64,000 bases of DNA, taken from Acidimicrobiales bacterium (lineage in GTDB: Bacteria > Actinomycetota > Acidimicrobiia > Acidimicrobiales > RAAP-2). Shown in pieces: positions 10,679 to 21,127 of this stretch. Every line of letters starts with the position of its first letter. Position 1 is the first letter of the stretch. The stretch lies in NCBI GenBank assembly GCA_015478655.1, contig JADMIJ010000002.1, positions 1-64,000 of the forward strand. The letters run 5' to 3'. The position numbers and the translations under genes were made by a program. The notes below the pieces were generated by a model. It was given only the letters and a program-made list of their open reading frames with translations. It had not been told where the DNA came from and searched no databases.

Positions 10679-13450
10679 TCAGGATTCCCATGGGTCTGGG
10701 GACCCAGCGTCGATGCCGTAGCGGCCGATGGCCTCGGCAACCGAACGCTCGGGGAGGCCGCCCTCGGCCACCAGGCTGTGGAGCACCGCCACCACGATGT
10801 GGGCGGCGTCCACCTCGAAGAACCGCCGCAGGACCTCCCGGGTGTCGGAGCGGCCGAATCCGTCCGTTCCCAGGGAGGTGAAGGCGCGGGGCGTCCAGCG
10901 CGAGACCTGATCGGGAACCGACCGCATGAAATCGGTCACGGCCACGATGGGCCCCTTCGACCCTGCCAGGCACTCGGTGACGTAGGGGACTCGCTCGGTC
11001 TCGCCGGGATGCAGGCGATTCCAGCGCTCGACGGAGATGGCGTCCTCACGCAGTGACTTGTAGGAGGTGACCGACCACAGGTCGGCCTCCACGCCCCAGT
11101 CGTCGGCGAGGAGTCGGCTGGCCTCCACCGCCGCCTGCCATGCGGAGCCAGAGAACATCAGTGTTGCTCCCGGCCTCGCTCCAACCGGCGTCCCGGCACC
11201 ATGTTTCTCCTCATCACCAGCACGAGCCCCGGCGCCATTCCCCACCACCACCCCGGCTTCGAAGCGATACATGCCCTTGACCGCCCCGAGGCGCACCCGC
11301 TCGGCATCGGCCGGATCCGTCGGAAGGGCGGGCATGGGGTAGTTCTCGTTGTAGAGGGTGAGATACCAGATCCGATCCTCGGGCTCGGGTCCGGTCATGC
11401 GGCGGATCCCGTCCTCCACGATGGTCGCCACCTCGTAGGAGAAGGCGGGGTCGTAGGCGGCGACGCTCGGCACCGCCGACGCCAGCAGCAGGGAGTGCCC
11501 ATCCTGGTGCTGGAGGCCCTCCCCGTTGAGCGTCGTCCGGCCCGCCGTGCAACCGAGGAGGAACCCACGACCCCTGCAGTCCCCCAGGGCCCACAGCAGG
11601 TCGCCCACTCGCTGGAAGCCGAACATCGAATAGAAGAGGTAGAAGGGGATCACCGGCTCGCCCCAGGTGGCGTAAGCGGTTGCCGCCGCGGTGAACGACG
11701 CCACCGCACCCGCCTCGGTGATGCCCTCTTGGAGGACCTGGCCCGAAGCGCTCTCGGCGTAGTGGAGGGCCAGCCCGGCATCCACCGGCGTGTAGCGCTG
11801 GCCGTCCGGTGCGTAGATCTGCACTTCGCTGATGAGCGACTCGAGGCCGAAGGTCCGGGCCTCATCGGACACGATGGGCACGATCCGCTCGCCGATGGAC
11901 GGGTCCCGTACCAGGGACCGGAGGAGCCGGGCGAAGGCCATGGTGGTGGACACGGCCTGTCGGCCCGACCCGGCCAGGAGGTCGGCGAAGGTGGCCTCGG
12001 TGGGGGCGGGCAGAGGCTGGTTCCGCACCACCCGGCTGGGCAGCGGTCCTCCGAGGGACCGGCGGCCTTGGGCCAGGTAGTTGGCGGCGGGCGAGTCCGG
12101 CGCCGGCCGGAAGTAGGTCGGCAGGTCGGCGTCCAGATCGCGTTCGGGTATCTCGTCGTGGAGGAACAGCCGGTCGCGCAGGACCAGCAACTGCGCCTTG
12201 GTCATCTTCTTGATCTGGTGGGTGGCGTTGCGGGCTTCGATCTCGGGTCCGAGCGTCCAACCCTTCACGGTCTTGGCCAAGATGGCGGTCGGAGCGCCGA
12301 CGTGCTCGGTGGCCGCCTTGTAGGCGGCGTAGAGCTTCCGGTAGTCGTGGCCGCCACGGGGAAGAGACTGGAGGTCCTCATCGGAGAGGTGGGCCACCAG
12401 GGCAGACAGCCGGGGGTCGGGTCCGAAGAAGTGCTCCCGGATGTAGGCGCCGGACTCCGTGGCGTACTTCTGGAACTCGCCGTCGACCGTGGCGTTCATC
12501 TTGTTGAGGAGCACGCCGTCGACGTCCTTGGCCAGCAGGTCGTCCCAGGTGCGGCCCCAGATGACCTTGATGACGTTCCAGCCCGCGCCCCGGAAGAGGG
12601 CCTCGAGCTCCTGGATGATCTTGCCGTTGCCGCGCACGGGGCCGTCCAGCCGCTGCAGGTTGCAGTTGACCACGAAGGTGAGATTGTCGAGGTGTTCCCG
12701 CCCCGCCATCCCGAGGGCACCGATGGTCTCCGGCTCATCGAACTCGCCATCCCCCACAAAGCCCCACACCCGACTGGCTGACGTGTCGGCGACCCCCCGG
12801 GCGTCGAGGTAGCGGGCCACGTGGGCCTGGGCCACGGCATTGAGCGGCCCGAGCCCCATCGACACGGTCGGGTACTCCCAGAACTCGGGCATCAACCGGG
12901 GGTGGGGGTACGAGGAGAGCCCGTCGGTCCCGACTTCGAACCGGAAGTTGTCCAACTGCTCCTCCGAGAGCCGGCCCTCGACGAAGGCCCGGGCGTAGAT
13001 GCCCGGAGAGGCATGGCCCTGGAAGTAGACCTGGTCCCCGGCCCGCCCCCCGTCCTTGCCCCGGAAGAAGTGGTTGAACCCCACCTCGTAGAGCGAAGCC
13101 GAACTGGCGTAGGTGGAGAGATGCCCCCCAATGGCCTCGGAGCGCACGTTGGCCCGGACCACCATCACCGCGGCATTCCAGCGGATGAAGGCCCGAATCC
13201 GTCTCTCGAGGAACTCGTCCCCCGGGAAGTCCGGCTCTTCGTCGGTCGGAATGGTGTTGACGTAGGGCGAGGAGACCGTGGCGGGAAAGTCCACCTGCTT
13301 CTGGCCGGCCCGCTCGAGGATCCTCATGAGCAGGTAGCGGGCCCGGGTCCGACCGTGGACGTCGACGACGTCGTCGAAGGCATCCAGCCACTCGGAGGTC
13401 TCGACCGGATCCGCGTCGGGAAGCTGATGGCTCACTCCGTCGAACAGCAC
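10679..13450 (-). CDS. aceE: Pyruvate dehydrogenase E1 component, homodimeric type
   Basis: AceE decarboxylates pyruvate with thiamine diphosphate and transfers the acetyl group to the lipoyl arm of E2. The 923-residue product has the typical length and features of homodimeric E1: YFQGHASPGIYARAFVEGRL, the ThDP/Mg motif GDGEFDEPE...NCNLQ, and C-terminal PYVTECLAGSKGPIVAVTDFM (two parts) and FGRSDTREVLRRFFEVD. The start is a GTG at 13450; another in-frame GTG lies 15 nt inside. It is transcribed away from rnhA, sharing a region with a 15-bp triple repeat. E3, E2 and lipoylation genes lie 2-5 kb away on the opposite strand. Confidence 0.97.
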   Translation of the reverse strand: MLFDGVSHQLPDADPVETSEWLDAFDDVVDVHGRTRARYLLMRILERAGQKQVDFPATVSSPYVNTIPTDEEPDFPGDEFLERRIRAFIRWNAAVMVVRANVRSEAIGGHLSTYASSASLYEVGFNHFFRGKDGGRAGDQVYFQGHASPGIYARAFVEGRLSEEQLDNFRFEVGTDGLSSYPHPRLMPEFWEYPTVSMGLGPLNAVAQAHVARYLDARGVADTSASRVWGFVGDGEFDEPETIGALGMAGREHLDNLTFVVNCNLQRLDGPVRGNGKIIQELEALFRGAGWNVIKVIWGRTWDDLLAKDVDGVLLNKMNATVDGEFQKYATESGAYIREHFFGPDPRLSALVAHLSDEDLQSLPRGGHDYRKLYAAYKAATEHVGAPTAILAKTVKGWTLGPEIEARNATHQIKKMTKAQLLVLRDRLFLHDEIPERDLDADLPTYFRPAPDSPAANYLAQGRRSLGGPLPSRVVRNQPLPAPTEATFADLLAGSGRQAVSTTMAFARLLRSLVRDPSIGERIVPIVSDEARTFGLESLISEVQIYAPDGQRYTPVDAGLALHYAESASGQVLQEGITEAGAVASFTAAATAYATWGEPVIPFYLFYSMFGFQRVGDLLWALGDCRGRGFLLGCTAGRTTLNGEGLQHQDGHSLLLASAVPSVAAYDPAFSYEVATIVEDGIRRMTGPEPEDRIWYLTLYNENYPMPALPTDPADAERVRLGAVKGMYRFEAGVVVGNGAGARAGDEEKHGAGTPVGARPGATLMFSGSAWQAAVEASRLLADDWGVEADLWSVTSYKSLREDAISVERWNRLHPGETERVPYVTECLAGSKGPIVAVTDFMRSVPDQVSRWTPRAFTSLGTDGFGRSDTREVLRRFFEVDAAHIVVAVLHSLVAEGGLPERSVAEAIGRYGIDAGSPDPWES

Positions 13451-15092: not shown

Positions 15093-16607
15093 ATGGAGGT
15101 GGTTCTGACGGCACCCGAGGGATCACAGGAACAGACGGCATCGGGGGGAGCCGACAAGGGGACGGCGGGAGACTCAGCCTTCGACGTGGTGATCATCGGC
15201 GCGGGTCCGGGCGGCTACGCCACGGCGCTGTACGGGGCGGCGGCGGGGCTGTCGGTGGCCATGGTCGAGCTCGACAAGGTCGGGGGAACCTGCCTGCACC
15301 GTGGCTGTGTGCCCGCCAAGGAGTTCCTCGAGACGGCGGCGGTCTACCGCACGGTGAGCGGCTCCGGCCAGTTCGGGATCGGCGCACAGGGAAGCGCAGG
15401 AAAAGATGAGCAAGCGAAGCCGACGTTGGACTTCTCGGTCAGCCAGGCCCGCAAGCAACAAGTGGTCGAAACACTGTTCAGGGGCCTCGAAGGCCTGCTG
15501 AAGGGGCGCGGCGTCTCGGTGTTCAGTGGCAGTGGCACGCTGCTGGCCGACCACCGCGTGCAGATCGCCGGCAACGACGGGTCGACCACCGAGATCACCG
15601 GCACCGATATCGTGCTGGCCGCGGGCTCGGTCCCCCGTACCATCCCGGGATTCGATGTCGACGGGAAGCTGGTCCTGACCTCGGACGAGGTCCTGGCCCT
15701 GGAGTCGCTGCCCTCGTCGGTGGCCGTGGTCGGTGGGGGTGCCATCGGGTGCGAGTTCGCCTCCCTGCTGAGTGACCTCGGCACCGCGGTGACCGTGTTC
15801 GAGGCCCTGCCGACGATCCTCGCCGATTGCGACGATGACGTCATCAAGACAGTGGCCCGCTCCTTCCGCCGACGAGGCATCGATGTCAAGACGGGCGCCC
15901 GCCTTCAGGGCCACACGCCCGATCCGTCTGGAACGGGAACCGTCGTGTCCTACGACGACGGGGAGAAGGTGGCGGTGGACGCCATCGTCATCTCGGTCGG
16001 GCGCCGCCCGCGTACCGAGGGTCTCGTCGGCCCCGGGACTGGCGTGGTGGTCGACGATCGGGGGTTCGTCGTCGCTGACGCGACCATGCGCACCGCCGCA
16101 GACGGGGTGTGGGCCGTCGGTGACGTGGTCGCCGACACGCCCCAACTTGCCCATGTCGGCTTCGCCGAGGGCATCGTGGTGATCAAGAGCATCCTGGGCG
16201 AGCCGGTCCTGCCGGTGGACTACGACCGGGCGCCCTGGGCCATCTACTGCCACCCGGAGGTGGCGTTCGCCGGACTCACCGAAGCGGCCGCTCGCCAGGC
16301 CGGATATGACGTGGTGGTCAAGAAGGATCCGTTCGGGGGGAACAGCCGGGCCCGCATCATCGGGGACACCGAAGGACTCGTGAAAGTCGTGGCCGAACGC
16401 CTGCCCGACGGCACCACCGGGAGGATCCTGGGCGTGCACATGGTCGGCCCCTGGGTGACCGAACAACTCGGGGCCGGGTACTTGGCCGTCAACTGGGAGG
16501 CGACCGTCGAAGAGGTGGCCCAGTTCATCCAGCCGCATCCCTCCCTGTCCGAGGCGTTCGGTGAGACGGTGCTGGCCCTGACAGGAAGGGGCCTGCACGT
16601 TGGCTGA
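15093..16607 (+). CDS. lpdA: Dihydrolipoyl dehydrogenase (E3)
   Basis: E3 reoxidises dihydrolipoamide on E2 and reduces NAD+. The 504-residue product has an extended N terminus of about 28 residues before the FAD motif VVIIGAGPGGYATAL. The redox disulfide is GGTCLHRGCVPAK (C67, C72). The second Rossmann motif is VVGGGAIGCEFAS, and the C-terminal HPSLSEAFGE supplies the catalytic His-Glu of the interface. It overlaps the E2 start by 8 bp, so the two are coupled. It begins a run lpdA-E2-lipBA-M24 peptidase-SDR. Confidence 0.96.
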   Translation: MEVVLTAPEGSQEQTASGGADKGTAGDSAFDVVIIGAGPGGYATALYGAAAGLSVAMVELDKVGGTCLHRGCVPAKEFLETAAVYRTVSGSGQFGIGAQGSAGKDEQAKPTLDFSVSQARKQQVVETLFRGLEGLLKGRGVSVFSGSGTLLADHRVQIAGNDGSTTEITGTDIVLAAGSVPRTIPGFDVDGKLVLTSDEVLALESLPSSVAVVGGGAIGCEFASLLSDLGTAVTVFEALPTILADCDDDVIKTVARSFRRRGIDVKTGARLQGHTPDPSGTGTVVSYDDGEKVAVDAIVISVGRRPRTEGLVGPGTGVVVDDRGFVVADATMRTAADGVWAVGDVVADTPQLAHVGFAEGIVVIKSILGEPVLPVDYDRAPWAIYCHPEVAFAGLTEAAARQAGYDVVVKKDPFGGNSRARIIGDTEGLVKVVAERLPDGTTGRILGVHMVGPWVTEQLGAGYLAVNWEATVEEVAQFIQPHPSLSEAFGETVLALTGRGLHVG

Positions 16608-18090
16608 TGTGACGATGCCCCAGCTCGGTGAGACCGTGACCGAGGGGACCATCACCAAGTGGTTCAAGGCCGTCGGCGACCAGGTGGCCCGGGATGAGCC
16701 GCTCTTCGAGGTGTCAACCGACAAGGTCGACTCGGAAGTGCCCTCGCCGGTCGAGGGGGTGGTCACCGCCATCCTGGTGGAGGAGGGCGACACTGTCGAT
16801 GTGGGGGTCAGGCTGGCGGTGATCAGCGACGGGACCTCGCCGGACGGTGACAGTCCCGCTTCCGCCGATCCGGTGGAGGCCACGCCGGCCACCGCGGTCG
16901 TGCCCGATCCGGGCCCGCCTGCCGAGCCCGTGGCGCCATTGGCGCCGGCCCAGAACCCCCAGCCGGTCGAGGGCGCCGTGCGAGTGCCCGAATCCGCGGC
17001 CTCGACCCGTGGGCCTGACCTGTCGCCGGCGCCTACCGATTGGACTCCCGCATCCACCCCGTTGAACGGTGCGGTGGATGGGCTGGTCCTGTCGCCGGTC
17101 GTGCGCAAGCTGTTGAGCGAGCACCGCATCGACCCGTCGACCGTCACCGGAACCGGACTCGGGGGGCGCATCACCCGAGGTGACGTCGAGGCGGTCATCG
17201 CCGCCGGCGGGTCGGGGGCCTCAATCGGACCGGCTGCGGTTCCGAGCATCCCCGACAGCCCTTCGCCGGGCGCTCCTGATCCGGTGGCCACACGTGCACC
17301 CGCGGGTGCCGCGGCTCCCGTGGCGACGCAGGCTGGGGAAGGGCCAGGGGAGGTCCGTGCCGGATCTCCGGCGGACGCCCGGGACGAAGTGATCCCCTTC
17401 ACCAACATCCGGCGCCGGACGGCCGAGCACATGGTCCGCTCCAAGGCCACGTCGGCTCACACGCTGATGGTCAAGGAGATCGACTACGAGCGGGTCGAGC
17501 AGGTGCGCCGAGCCCATGGGGCGCGCTTCCGGGCCGAGGAGGGATTCAACCTCAGCTACCTCCCGTTCGCGGCACGGGCCAGCGTCGATGCCCTGGAGGA
17601 GTACCCCAACCTCAACGCTTCGATCGGTGATGACGCCCTCATCGTTCACCACGACGTGAACCTGGGTATCGCCGTCGATCTGGACAATGAGGGGCTGATC
17701 GTCCCGGTAGTCCACAATGCTGAGGAACTCAACCTGAGGGGCATGGCCCGCAGGATCCGAGATCTGGCCGACCGGGCCCGGAACAAGCGACTGAGCCTCG
17801 ATGACATCAGCGGTGGAACCTTCTCGATCACCAACGCCGGACCGTTCGGCACCCTGATCACCGGGGCCATCATCAACCAACCTCAGGTGGCGATTCTGTC
17901 CACTGACGGTGTGGCCCGAAAGCCGGTGGTGGTGGAGCTGCCCGACGGCACCGAGTCGATTGCCATCCACTCGGTGGGACTGGTGGCCATGACCTTCGAT
18001 CATCGGGCCGTTGACGGGGCCTACGTGGCGAGGTACCTGGCCCGATTGGCGCAGATCCTGAATGAGCGGGACTGGGCCGGCGAGCTGTAG
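16600..18090 (+). CDS. Dihydrolipoamide acyltransferase (E2 of 2-oxoacid dehydrogenase)
   Basis: E2 carries the acyl group on lipoate and transfers it to CoA. The 496-residue product has one lipoyl domain (1-80, lipoyl-lysine K42 in STDKVDSEV), a long Ala/Pro linker (about 80-160), the E3-binding domain (about 163-200: SPVVRKLLSEHRIDPSTV), a second Ala/Pro linker, and the catalytic domain with the DHRAVDG motif near the C terminus. The start is TTG at 16600, supported by AGGAAGGGG upstream and overlap with lpdA. The order with lpdA and LipBA, and aceE nearby, suggests pyruvate dehydrogenase E2, perhaps also used for 2-oxoglutarate. Actinobacterial E2 often has more than one lipoyl domain; here I see one. 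Confidence 0.94.
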   Translation: MADVTMPQLGETVTEGTITKWFKAVGDQVARDEPLFEVSTDKVDSEVPSPVEGVVTAILVEEGDTVDVGVRLAVISDGTSPDGDSPASADPVEATPATAVVPDPGPPAEPVAPLAPAQNPQPVEGAVRVPESAASTRGPDLSPAPTDWTPASTPLNGAVDGLVLSPVVRKLLSEHRIDPSTVTGTGLGGRITRGDVEAVIAAGGSGASIGPAAVPSIPDSPSPGAPDPVATRAPAGAAAPVATQAGEGPGEVRAGSPADARDEVIPFTNIRRRTAEHMVRSKATSAHTLMVKEIDYERVEQVRRAHGARFRAEEGFNLSYLPFAARASVDALEEYPNLNASIGDDALIVHHDVNLGIAVDLDNEGLIVPVVHNAEELNLRGMARRIRDLADRARNKRLSLDDISGGTFSITNAGPFGTLITGAIINQPQVAILSTDGVARKPVVVELPDGTESIAIHSVGLVAMTFDHRAVDGAYVARYLARLAQILNERDWAGEL

Positions 18091-18132: not shown

Positions 18133-19932
18133 ATGAGAGTCCGGTGGTTGGGCCGCGTGCCCTACCGTGAGGCGTGGACGGTGCAGCGCGCCATGAGCAG
18201 CCGTTCGGATCACGACTATCTGCTGCTGCTCGAGCACCCTCACGTCTACACCCTGGGGACGAACGGCGACCCCCACCACGTGCTGGTCGAACCGGCGTCG
18301 GTCGGCGCTGAAATGATCGAGGTCGACCGGGGTGGCGACGTCACCTATCATGGTCCCGGGCAGCTGGTCGGTTACCCCCTTGTCTCGGTGGGGTCCGGTC
18401 CCCACCGGGGCCCCGAGCACGTGCGCCGGGTCGAACAGGTGGTCATCGACGCCCTGGTCGCCCTCGGGATGCCGCCCTCCAGCGTGGGCCGACTCCCCGG
18501 CTACCCGGGGGTCTGGGCCGGACTTGACGAAGACGAGCCCGGGTCACCCGCGCCGCGCAAGATCTGCGCCATCGGCGTGCGGACGTCGAGGGGGCGCACC
18601 ACCCACGGGCTGGCGCTCAATGTCCATCCCGACCTCTCCATGTTCGATCACATCGTGCCCTGTGGGATCGCCGACAAGCCGGTCACGTCGTTGGAGGCCG
18701 AGGGACACCACGTGACCATGGCAGCGGCGGTGGACGCCATCATCGCCTCGGCACAGACGGCGTGGGGCGAGGTGGAGGACATCCAGCGGGTCACCGATGC
18801 GGTGCGGGCCGACCTGGCCACGGTGCCGGGTGTCGCGGCCGATCCTGCCGGCACGGTCGAAGGCGGGGAGGTCGGAGGCAACGGCGTTGTGGAGGCAATA
18901 CCGGTGGCCCTCGGCCGTCGCCCGCCCGCAGAACGGGCGCTCGACCGGCGTCTCCGGCGGTCCGGGGTCGACCCGGGTGCCGGTCTGTCCCTTGGTGAGC
19001 GGAAGCCACCGTGGTTGCGGGCCAAGGCGCACATGGGAGGCGACTACCTCGGTCTCCGGCATGATCTTCGAGACCTCGACCTGGCCACCGTGTGCGAAGA
19101 GGCGGGCTGCCCCAACATCTATGAGTGCTGGTCCGATGGCACGGCCACATTCATGATCAACGGATCCCGCTGCACGCGCGCCTGCGGTTTCTGCCAGGTG
19201 GACACCCGGCACCCACTTCCGCTCGATGTAGGAGAGCCGGAGCGGGTGGCCCAGGCCGTCGGTCGAATGGGGCTGGCCCATGCGGTGATCACCTGCGTCG
19301 CCCGGGACGAACTGGCCGACGGGGGAGCGGGAGGATTCGCGGCCACCATCGCCGCCGTCCGCAACCGCACGCCCCGGACGACAATCGAAGTGCTGATCTC
19401 GGATTGCAAGGGCGATCAGGGGTCGCTGGACACCATCTTCGGGGCGCGGCCTGATGTCCTCAATCACAACATCGAGACGGTGGCGAGGTTGCAACGGGCG
19501 GTGAGGCCTTCGGCGGGCTATGCCAGGAGCCTCGGGGTCCTGGCCCGCGCCAAGGGCGCCGGCCTCACCACCAAGTCGGGGATCATCCTCGGGATGGGTG
19601 AGCGCGTGGACGAGGTGCTGGCCACCCTGTCCGATCTCCGTGCCGTCGGGGTGGACATCGTGACCGTGGGCCAGTACCTGCGCCCGAGCAGCCGCCACCT
19701 CCCGGTGGCGCGGTGGTGGACTCCGGGGGAGTTCGGGGCCATCCAGAAGGCGGGGATGGCCATGGGGTTCGCCCACGTGCAGGCGTCCCCGTTGACCCGT
19801 TCGAGCTATCACGCCCGGGAGGCGGCGGAGGCTTCTGCTTCCGGACGGGTGAGCTCCGGGGATCGCGACGCCGGCTCTCCTCTGAGGGTTTCGACGGCCC
19901 CGGCCCCGCCGACAGCCCCCGTGGCCCCCTAG
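18133..19932 (+). CDS. LipB-LipA fusion: octanoyltransferase plus lipoyl synthase
   Basis: One open frame of 599 residues holds both steps of de novo lipoylation. Residues 1-215 are LipB, moving octanoate from ACP to the target lysine: RGGDVTYHGPGQ, catalytic K143 in RKICAIGV, THGLALNV, and catalytic C177 in VPCGIADKPVTSL. Residues about 216-288 are a linker. Residues 289-565 are LipA, the radical-SAM enzyme that inserts two sulfurs. Its auxiliary cluster cysteines are C321, C326 and C332, its SAM cluster is C347/C351/C354 (CTRACGFC), and the conserved RSSY is at 556-559. A Ser/Pro/Ala tail ends the protein. All key residues of both enzymes are present. It lies 42 nt after its client E2. Confidence 0.95.
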   Translation: MRVRWLGRVPYREAWTVQRAMSSRSDHDYLLLLEHPHVYTLGTNGDPHHVLVEPASVGAEMIEVDRGGDVTYHGPGQLVGYPLVSVGSGPHRGPEHVRRVEQVVIDALVALGMPPSSVGRLPGYPGVWAGLDEDEPGSPAPRKICAIGVRTSRGRTTHGLALNVHPDLSMFDHIVPCGIADKPVTSLEAEGHHVTMAAAVDAIIASAQTAWGEVEDIQRVTDAVRADLATVPGVAADPAGTVEGGEVGGNGVVEAIPVALGRRPPAERALDRRLRRSGVDPGAGLSLGERKPPWLRAKAHMGGDYLGLRHDLRDLDLATVCEEAGCPNIYECWSDGTATFMINGSRCTRACGFCQVDTRHPLPLDVGEPERVAQAVGRMGLAHAVITCVARDELADGGAGGFAATIAAVRNRTPRTTIEVLISDCKGDQGSLDTIFGARPDVLNHNIETVARLQRAVRPSAGYARSLGVLARAKGAGLTTKSGIILGMGERVDEVLATLSDLRAVGVDIVTVGQYLRPSSRHLPVARWWTPGEFGAIQKAGMAMGFAHVQASPLTRSSYHAREAAEASASGRVSSGDRDAGSPLRVSTAPAPPTAPVAP

Positions 19933-19936
19933 CCCG

Positions 19937-21127
19937 GTGGTGACCGAACTCTCGGATCGGGCCCTCGCGGCGCGCCAGGCGCGGATCACCAGGGTTCGTC
20001 GTCGCATGGAGCAGCGGGGCGTGGACGCCCTCCTGCTCTCCCACGGGGCGGACCTGCCCTGGCTGACCGGCTATCGGGCCATGCCGTTGGAACGCCTGAC
20101 CATGCTCGTCCTGCGACAGGCCGGTGAGTCCGTGTTGGTCGTCCCGAGCCTGGAGGCGCCCCGGGTGGCCGGAGCGGACGATCTCTTCACCCTGCTCCCG
20201 TGGACCGACGATCAGGATCCGATCGATCTGGTGGCTTCGATCTTGGGTCGGAAGGACAGGACGGGCGGAGCGGGCAGGACGGGCGCAACCGGCGAAGGCA
20301 CGATCCGGTGTGCCGTTTCGGACCGGGCGTGGGCCGCCACCGTGCTGGGGCTCCAACGCCAATTGGCCGCCGCCGAGTGGATCGAGGCCTCGGCCATCAC
20401 GTCGTCGATCCGGGCAGTCAAGGATGAAGCAGAGTTGGCGGCGTTGCAGATGGCCGGAGCTGCCGCCGATCGGGTGGCGGCCAAATTGCAGGGAGGCGAG
20501 ATCGGGCTGGTCGGTCGCACGGAGGCCGATGTGTCCGGACAGATCGCCGCCCTGTTGATCGAGGAGGGGCACCAACAGGTCAATTTTGCCATCGTCGGCA
20601 GCGGGCCCAATGCGGCCAGTCCGCACCACGAGCCCGGCGGACGTGTCATCGTCGCCGGGGAGACGGTGGTGTGTGACTTCGGCGGGTCCTTCTCGCTCGA
20701 CGGCGATGTCGGCTACTGCTCGGACATCACCCGCACGCTGATGACAGGACCACCGTCCTCCCAGATCGAGCAGTGCTATCAGGTGCTGCTGTCCGCCCAA
20801 CAGGCTGCGGTGTCCTCGGCCCGGGCGGGAGTCAGCGCCGAGCACGTGGACCAGGTGGCGAGGTCGATCATCCTCGATGCGGGCTTTGGTGACCTCTTCA
20901 TCCATCGCACGGGCCACGGAATCGGTATCGAAGAGCATGAGGACCCCTACCTGGTGGCGGGAAACAGCGAGCCACTGGAGCCTGGCCATGCCTTCTCGGT
21001 GGAGCCGGGGATCTACTGGCCCGATCGGTTCGGCATGCGCCTGGAGGACATCGTGGTGATCGGCTCGGACGGGAGCCCCCAACCGCTGAACTCGGCCGAC
21101 CACGGCCTCGTCGTCGTCGACGCATGA
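19937..21127 (+). CDS. M24-family aminopeptidase (Xaa-Pro peptidase-like)
   Basis: A cytoplasmic metallopeptidase of 396 residues that would remove N-terminal residues before proline or degrade small peptides. A creatinase-like N-terminal domain (about 1-150) is followed by the pita-bread domain. The metal ligands are Asp in VCDFGGSFSLDGDVGYCSD (two Asp), His in HRTGHGIGIEEHEDPY, Glu in FSVEPGIY and Glu in RLEDIVVI. It starts at a GTG 4 nt after the LipBA stop; the next codon is also GTG. Tight spacing implies cotranscription, though no functional link to lipoylation is evident. Confidence 0.93.
   Translation: MVTELSDRALAARQARITRVRRRMEQRGVDALLLSHGADLPWLTGYRAMPLERLTMLVLRQAGESVLVVPSLEAPRVAGADDLFTLLPWTDDQDPIDLVASILGRKDRTGGAGRTGATGEGTIRCAVSDRAWAATVLGLQRQLAAAEWIEASAITSSIRAVKDEAELAALQMAGAAADRVAAKLQGGEIGLVGRTEADVSGQIAALLIEEGHQQVNFAIVGSGPNAASPHHEPGGRVIVAGETVVCDFGGSFSLDGDVGYCSDITRTLMTGPPSSQIEQCYQVLLSAQQAAVSSARAGVSAEHVDQVARSIILDAGFGDLFIHRTGHGIGIEEHEDPYLVAGNSEPLEPGHAFSVEPGIYWPDRFGMRLEDIVVIGSDGSPQPLNSADHGLVVVDA

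Follow-up and report, generated by a model that had tools for sequence, protein, structure and literature searches.

LipB and LipA, the enzymes of the two de novo lipoyl-assembly steps, are predicted to form one fused protein in the sampled Acidimicrobiia

The lipBA locus

The window (the whole analysed stretch of DNA, 64,000 nucleotides long) contains an open frame of 599 codons at positions 18133-19932 of the forward strand, which begins with ATG and has no internal stop codons. It codes for a putative bifunctional octanoyltransferase/lipoyl synthase and follows the genes of a dihydrolipoyl dehydrogenase (E3) and an acyltransferase (E2). The features of the locus are:

10679-13450, reverse strand: AceE-type homodimeric pyruvate dehydrogenase E1 (TIGR00759, 1282.7 bits against a cut-off of 859.9)
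15093..16607, forward strand: E3 dihydrolipoyl dehydrogenase, first gene of the E3-E2-lipBA row (TIGR01350, 441.7 bits against a cut-off of 408.8)
16600..18090, forward strand: E2 acyltransferase with a 2-oxoacid dehydrogenase core, an E3-binding part and one lipoyl domain; the adjacent client
16606-16824, forward strand: lipoyl domain of E2, present in a single copy
18133..19932, forward strand: lipB-lipA fusion gene, 599 aa, bifunctional octanoyltransferase/lipoyl synthase with activities assigned from the protein families
18163..18750, forward strand: LipB (LplA-B_cat) domain, residues 11-206, matched in Pfam and NCBIfam
18559-18561 and 18661-18663, forward strand: codons of the catalytic K143 and C177 of the LipB domain, by alignment
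18751..18999, forward strand: junction, residues 207-289, the 83 residues between the two Pfam matches
18889..18906, forward strand: a pair of GTG codons in frame, at residues 253 and 258, that follow GGAGG; putative internal LipA starts
19000..19110, forward strand: LipA N-terminal domain (Pfam LIAS_N match), residues 290-326, with C321 and C326
19165..19635, forward strand: LipA radical SAM domain (Pfam Radical_SAM), residues 345-501, with C347, C351 and C354
19798-19809, forward strand: RSSY motif, residues 556-559, downstream of the Radical_SAM match
19937-21127: M24 peptidase frame, which can start four bases past the stop codon of the fusion gene

The E3 and E2 genes overlap by 8 bases, and a gap of 42 bases separates E2 from the fusion gene on the same strand, in agreement with an earlier note on this DNA, which had placed the gene directly after E3 and E2. 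E2 has its best match in SucB_Actino, with a score below the cut-off of that model (376.2 against 423.45). Since the fusion gene lies behind E3 and E2, the enzyme and its main client are probably produced jointly, as predicted from gene order. The AceE-type E1 gene is located near the E3-E2-lipBA row and is divergent from it; the two genes between them were named by eye as RNase-H-like and short-chain dehydrogenase-like.

A similar gene order is found at most of the other fused loci described below. In 122 of the 133 testable loci E2 precedes the fusion gene on the same strand, with no more than 192 bases between the aligned ends, and E3 precedes E2 in 71 of the 73 loci with enough upstream sequence. 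An upstream E2 on the same strand was not found in 11 of the 133 testable loci (L085-L088, L092, L094, L095, L051, L182, L226 and L228). The first seven of these, titled Microthrix, Acidimicrobiaceae or Acidimicrobiales, may mark one rearrangement.

Two complete halves in one frame

Judging by its sequence, the fusion gene encodes both halves complete. The LipB half exceeds the NCBIfam cut-offs of TIGR00214 (lipB, 131.8 bits against 83.55) and PRK14345 (174.1 against 155) and also matches three further LipB models, PRK14343, PRK14341 and PRK14342, below their cut-offs. The LipA half exceeds those of TIGR00510 (lipA, 325.2 bits against 310.25) and PRK05481 (379.3 against 203). The single uninterrupted 599-codon LipB-LipA frame claimed in the earlier note is thereby confirmed, with both halves above their family cut-offs, and alignment finds K143, C177, C321/C326/C332, C347/C351/C354 and RSSY 556-559 all at the positions given there. 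C177 and K143 correspond to the cysteine of the PCG motif and the lysine that make up the catalytic dyad of LipB. C332 lies just beyond the LIAS_N match; together with C321 and C326 it presumably provides the ligands of the auxiliary cluster.

A protein search of the whole source genome (a draft of 4.47 Mb in 347 contigs, 92.9% complete) matched one place and revealed no second copy of LipB or LipA.

Distribution of the fusion in Acidimicrobiia

The search for relatives gave a match in 57 of 61 genomes (four had none), and the search across the class Acidimicrobiia gave one in 363 of 395 genomes (32 had none); a repeat search of 64 of these class genomes placed their matches in 64 of 64. DNA was read for 141 class genomes (L009-L065, L146-L229), a set taken from the genomes with a match, which excludes those without one and does not include every matching one; in all 141, both halves lie in one frame with no stop codon between them. 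Matches cut by a contig end were left out (G005, G029, G057, G234 and G244), and L120, a fragment without LipB, was removed before counting. The same one-frame fusion, again with no stop between the halves, was found in 50 named records (L066-L114, L127) drawn from the best 80 of 586 confirmed stretches. By title, 23 of these 50 belong to Acidimicrobiia, Acidimicrobiales or Acidimicrobiaceae, and 19 have wider or odd titles; eight more we assign to the class by name (Microthrix 2, Actinomarina 4, OCS155 1, Acidiferrimicrobium 1). This domain order, which the earlier note proposed to look for in other genomes, is thus common to a total of 191 loci coding for 183 distinct proteins, with a locus GC content of 0.33-0.77. 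Some of the class genomes with the fusion are only about 1 Mb in size. One of the named records, L097 (CAMBEL010000003.1), is titled Bifidobacterium breve and carries an Acidimicrobiia-type fusion with 52% identity; the title looks wrong for this contig.

The catalytic residues are retained throughout the set. In the alignment, no substitution of K143, C177 or any of the six cluster cysteines occurs among the 191 fused loci. R556, S557 and S558 are each present in 189 of the 191, the exceptions being L217 and L228, and the fourth position of the RSSY motif is Y in 174 loci, H in 11, F in four, W in one and a gap in one. Apparent losses of catalytic motifs in some loci turned out to be failures of a strict pattern, as the alignment shows the residues to be retained.

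The source genome is a draft in 347 contigs, and a single frame in such a genome could in principle be produced by an assembly or frameshift error, which the earlier note had named among the results that would overturn its reading. That explanation is refuted by the occurrence of the fusion in independent genomes: there are 183 distinct fused proteins, including those from the single-contig genomes G038, G062 and G081 (L029, L153 and L195), and no stop codon separates the halves in any of the 191 loci. We regard an error of this kind as extremely improbable.

Separate genes outside the class and the origin of the fusion

Sampling outside the class covered the phylum Actinomycetota and plasmid records. 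None of 35 loci from other Actinomycetota (Rhodococcus, Dietzia, Streptomyces, Nocardiopsis and others) carries the fusion. In these loci lipB and lipA are same-frame neighbours with one or two stop codons between them, an arrangement towards which the set is biased: 29 loci were ranked by a joined score, which favours same-frame neighbours, and six were chosen for a match across both genes. No fusion was found among 20 outside-class loci chosen for a long LipA frame, ten of which have a separate LipB next door, while the 1.5 kb upstream of the other ten contains no LipB. The fusion was likewise not found in 49 loci taken one per family from other families of the phylum, four of which reach the end of the stretch. 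The remainder comprises 22 loci with adjacent and separate genes, 21 with LipA alone and an upstream stop codon, one where LipB is not upstream and one without LipA. For one of the four stretch-end loci, L302, LipB was located in another frame about 5 kb away; the other three are undecided. Among the 214 matching plasmid records, none has one place covering 80% of the query. Adjacent but separate lipB and lipA genes would be the expected state before the fusion.

In an unrooted tree of joined LipA and LipB sequences, the 33 representatives chosen from the fused loci form one side of a branch, with 45 separate pairs on the other side (support 92/97; 92% of 200 bootstrap trees). One branch with a support of 85 also divides 33 fused from 55 separate sequences in the LipA-only tree. 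The LipB-only tree, built by a quick method, has two state changes rather than one, although a single change is compatible with its starred branches. The simplest reading of these sequence comparisons is one fusion of neighbouring lipB and lipA genes before Acidimicrobiia radiated, the genes having stayed fused ever since.

We therefore favour the interpretation that the gene codes for one bifunctional enzyme predicted to carry out both steps of de novo lipoyl assembly, fused most simply once and kept since, and assign it a probability of roughly 0.8.

Linker and predicted structure

The linker (equivalents of residues 207-289) is 23-129 residues long in the 191 loci, with a median of 58, and is poorly conserved: the majority residue stands at 0.36 in the part corresponding to 225-262, compared to 0.64 in LipB and 0.72 in LipA. 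The last 20 or so junction residues match an N-terminal stretch which is also present in separate LipA proteins. The earlier estimate of roughly 70 linker residues for the window protein is a fair one, as there are 83 residues between the Pfam matches and, within the linker, predicted confidence (pLDDT) is below 50 only at 225-248.

The linker is open in 191 of 191 loci. Its openness is less telling in the GC-rich majority, since linkers are also open in the +1 frame in 70 and in the +2 frame in 66 of the 191 loci. In the 11 loci with a GC content below 0.45, a shuffled linker is open at a frequency of 0.0015-0.026 each, and these linkers are interrupted by at least one stop codon in every one of their five other reading frames. 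A chance open frame between two genes is ruled out by these AT-rich members. The 183 distinct linkers hold 2436 codons which are one base away from a stop codon, and no stop was seen; from this we infer selection to keep the halves joined. A stop codon in the linker would also abolish LipA unless translation restarted efficiently behind it, a caveat which weakens the argument for channelling and not that for the fusion.

The AlphaFold2 model of the window protein, based on an alignment of 82 fusions, has a mean pLDDT of 90.6 and a pTM of 0.89. Apart from the linker segment, pLDDT is below 50 in the C-terminal tail (583-599), and confidence is low up to about residue 260. The model of the L109 protein (OCS155 cluster bacterium, Actinomarina-type), which is 43% identical to the window protein, has a pLDDT of 93.7 and a pTM of 0.92, with no residues below 50, linker included. 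Since a pTM of about 0.9 exceeds what we would expect for domains with no fixed relative position, the prediction is that the LipB and LipA catalytic domains take up definite positions relative to each other and do not merely hang together on a flexible tether. Such a predicted arrangement is compatible with sequential action on one client. According to Foldseek, the closest solved structures include 5exk, 5exi, 4u0p and human LIAS for LipA and are 1w66 and 2qhs for LipB, all of them single-function proteins.

One frame may nevertheless give rise to two proteins in the cell, if some or most of the LipA comes from translation that begins inside the linker or if the linker is cut after translation. 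In the window, a second, shorter LipA product is possible from the GTG codons which follow GGAGG. The combination of a strong Shine-Dalgarno sequence with an in-frame start codon is mildly enriched in linkers (0.40 per 100 codons compared to 0.23 in LipB and 0.24 in LipA), and part of the linker is predicted to be disordered in the window model. However, a strong Shine-Dalgarno sequence with any in-frame start codon is present in only 38 of the 191 linkers; 104 have no ATG at all, and the ATG density of the linkers, 0.98 per 100 codons, is below that of the LipB and LipA parts (1.64 and 2.22). A conserved class-wide internal start was not found in the 191 linkers. Moreover, if separate products sufficed, stop codons could be expected to appear in the linker, and none has appeared in 191 loci, while the L109 model has a confidently predicted linker. 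Overall, two products from one frame seem improbable to us.

Lipoylated clients

E2 is not the only likely client of the fusion enzyme. A glycine cleavage H-protein gene, another likely client, is located on contig C317 of the source genome. A lipoyl-domain frame (L265:1459-2205, contig C330 of the same genome), whose listed start codon is probably misplaced, is a second one. The latter gene directly follows an E1-beta-like gene and precedes an enoyl-CoA-hydratase-like gene, both named by eye. Three more biotin_lipoyl matches in the source genome lie in frames which, read by eye, resemble biotin enzymes. Presumably, the fusion enzyme also serves the clients encoded elsewhere; since the H-protein and the C330 lipoyl domain are among its presumed substrates, dedication to the neighbouring E2 alone is unlikely.

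The source genome also codes for a 242 aa protein of the LplA/LipB superfamily (L264:3009-3737, or C240:36008-36736), with a Pfam score of 65.9 against a cut-off of 27 and scores below the cut-offs of both NCBIfam ligase models it matched. This protein is possibly a ligase-like or amidotransferase-like lipoylation partner. Because of this second LplA-family protein, loading of the LipB type is perhaps not the sole route. The gene sits between HNH-endonuclease-like and MraW-like frames, named by eye.

Possible mechanism

According to PMC8639206, LipB forms an octanoyl thioester on a cysteine and then passes the chain to the lipoyl lysine, using a Cys/Lys dyad. LipA sacrifices a cluster in catalysis, as stated in the abstract of PMC12246082. 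In the fusion protein, C177 of the LipB half would accept octanoate from acyl carrier protein, the chain would move on to a lipoyl-domain lysine, and the LipA half would then insert two sulfur atoms. As both sites belong to one polypeptide, the octanoylated domain would leave the first site near the second. The two halves would be expected to act in sequence and to profit from the raised local concentration, whether or not the client is set free in between. Since LipA sacrifices its cluster, a single shared turnover rate of both halves is unlikely; the cluster must be rebuilt, so the rate limit likely lies in the LipA half.

How much the two sites gain from proximity can be viewed in different ways. 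The fusion may only secure equal amounts and co-folding of the two halves, each of which would work independently on freely diffusing clients and gain nothing from proximity. The presence of clients encoded away from the locus (the H-protein on C317 and the lipoyl domain on C330) fits this view, as does a linker so variable in length and so poorly conserved in sequence. On the other hand, the lack of any fission in 191 loci suggests that the joined state matters, with the reservation that LipA, too, would be lost behind a stop with no efficient restart, and both models have a pTM near 0.9, which is more than we would expect for independently placed domains. We give this view a little less than an even chance.

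Hand-over of the client between the halves without release, which the earlier note proposed, may occur and is plausible. We can speculate further that the single bifunctional enzyme is a two-station machine, whose two domains are so placed that an octanoylated lipoyl domain could move between the LipB and LipA active sites while staying on the protein. This architecture would have become established a single time in the ancestor of Acidimicrobiia, with selection against any split. We hold this proposal to be tentative and lean against it in its complete form.

Relation to known systems

LipB and LipA are regarded as separate enzymes which act in turn on the same lipoyl domain. The separate proteins, such as those of Mycobacterium tuberculosis (1w66 for LipB; 5exi and 5exk for LipA), share the folds and catalytic residues of the fusion protein, with 43% and about 50% identity, respectively, in the Foldseek comparison. 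They differ in being two proteins encoded by two genes, which are neighbours in many Actinomycetota, whereas here one polypeptide contains both, with a junction of 23-129 residues.

The NCBIfam family NF053790 (LplA_LipA_fuse, bifunctional lipoate--protein ligase/lipoyl synthase) is, by its name, also a combination of an attachment enzyme with LipA, but the attachment enzyme named is a lipoate ligase and not LipB. This model matches only the LipA half of the fusion protein (residues 290-563), with 327.4 bits against a cut-off of 800. Lpl(AB) and Lpl(BA) ligases are further fusions of lipoate-assembly genes, also found in Actinomycetota according to PMC10332631. They join the catalytic and accessory domains of a ligase and perform one ligase reaction, without lipoyl synthase, while here two enzymes are joined.

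Among the open-licence papers listed by literature searches, none describes a LipB-LipA fusion. The accessible text of the GTDB-wide survey of lipoate assembly (PMC10332631) contains neither a LipB-LipA fusion nor the string 'acidimicrob'. The name 'lipBA' is used repeatedly for Shewanella in PMC4398509. Fusions of consecutive enzymes are already known; new is the class-wide LipB-LipA architecture of known enzymes.

Hand-over as opposed to release is hard to test with separate LipB and LipA. The natural fusion constitutes a ready reagent for this, as one purified protein with an easily cut linker can be compared with its own halves. It is also a structure target for the placement of the two active sites, and the LipB-LipA fusion may serve as a diagnostic architecture for Acidimicrobiia.
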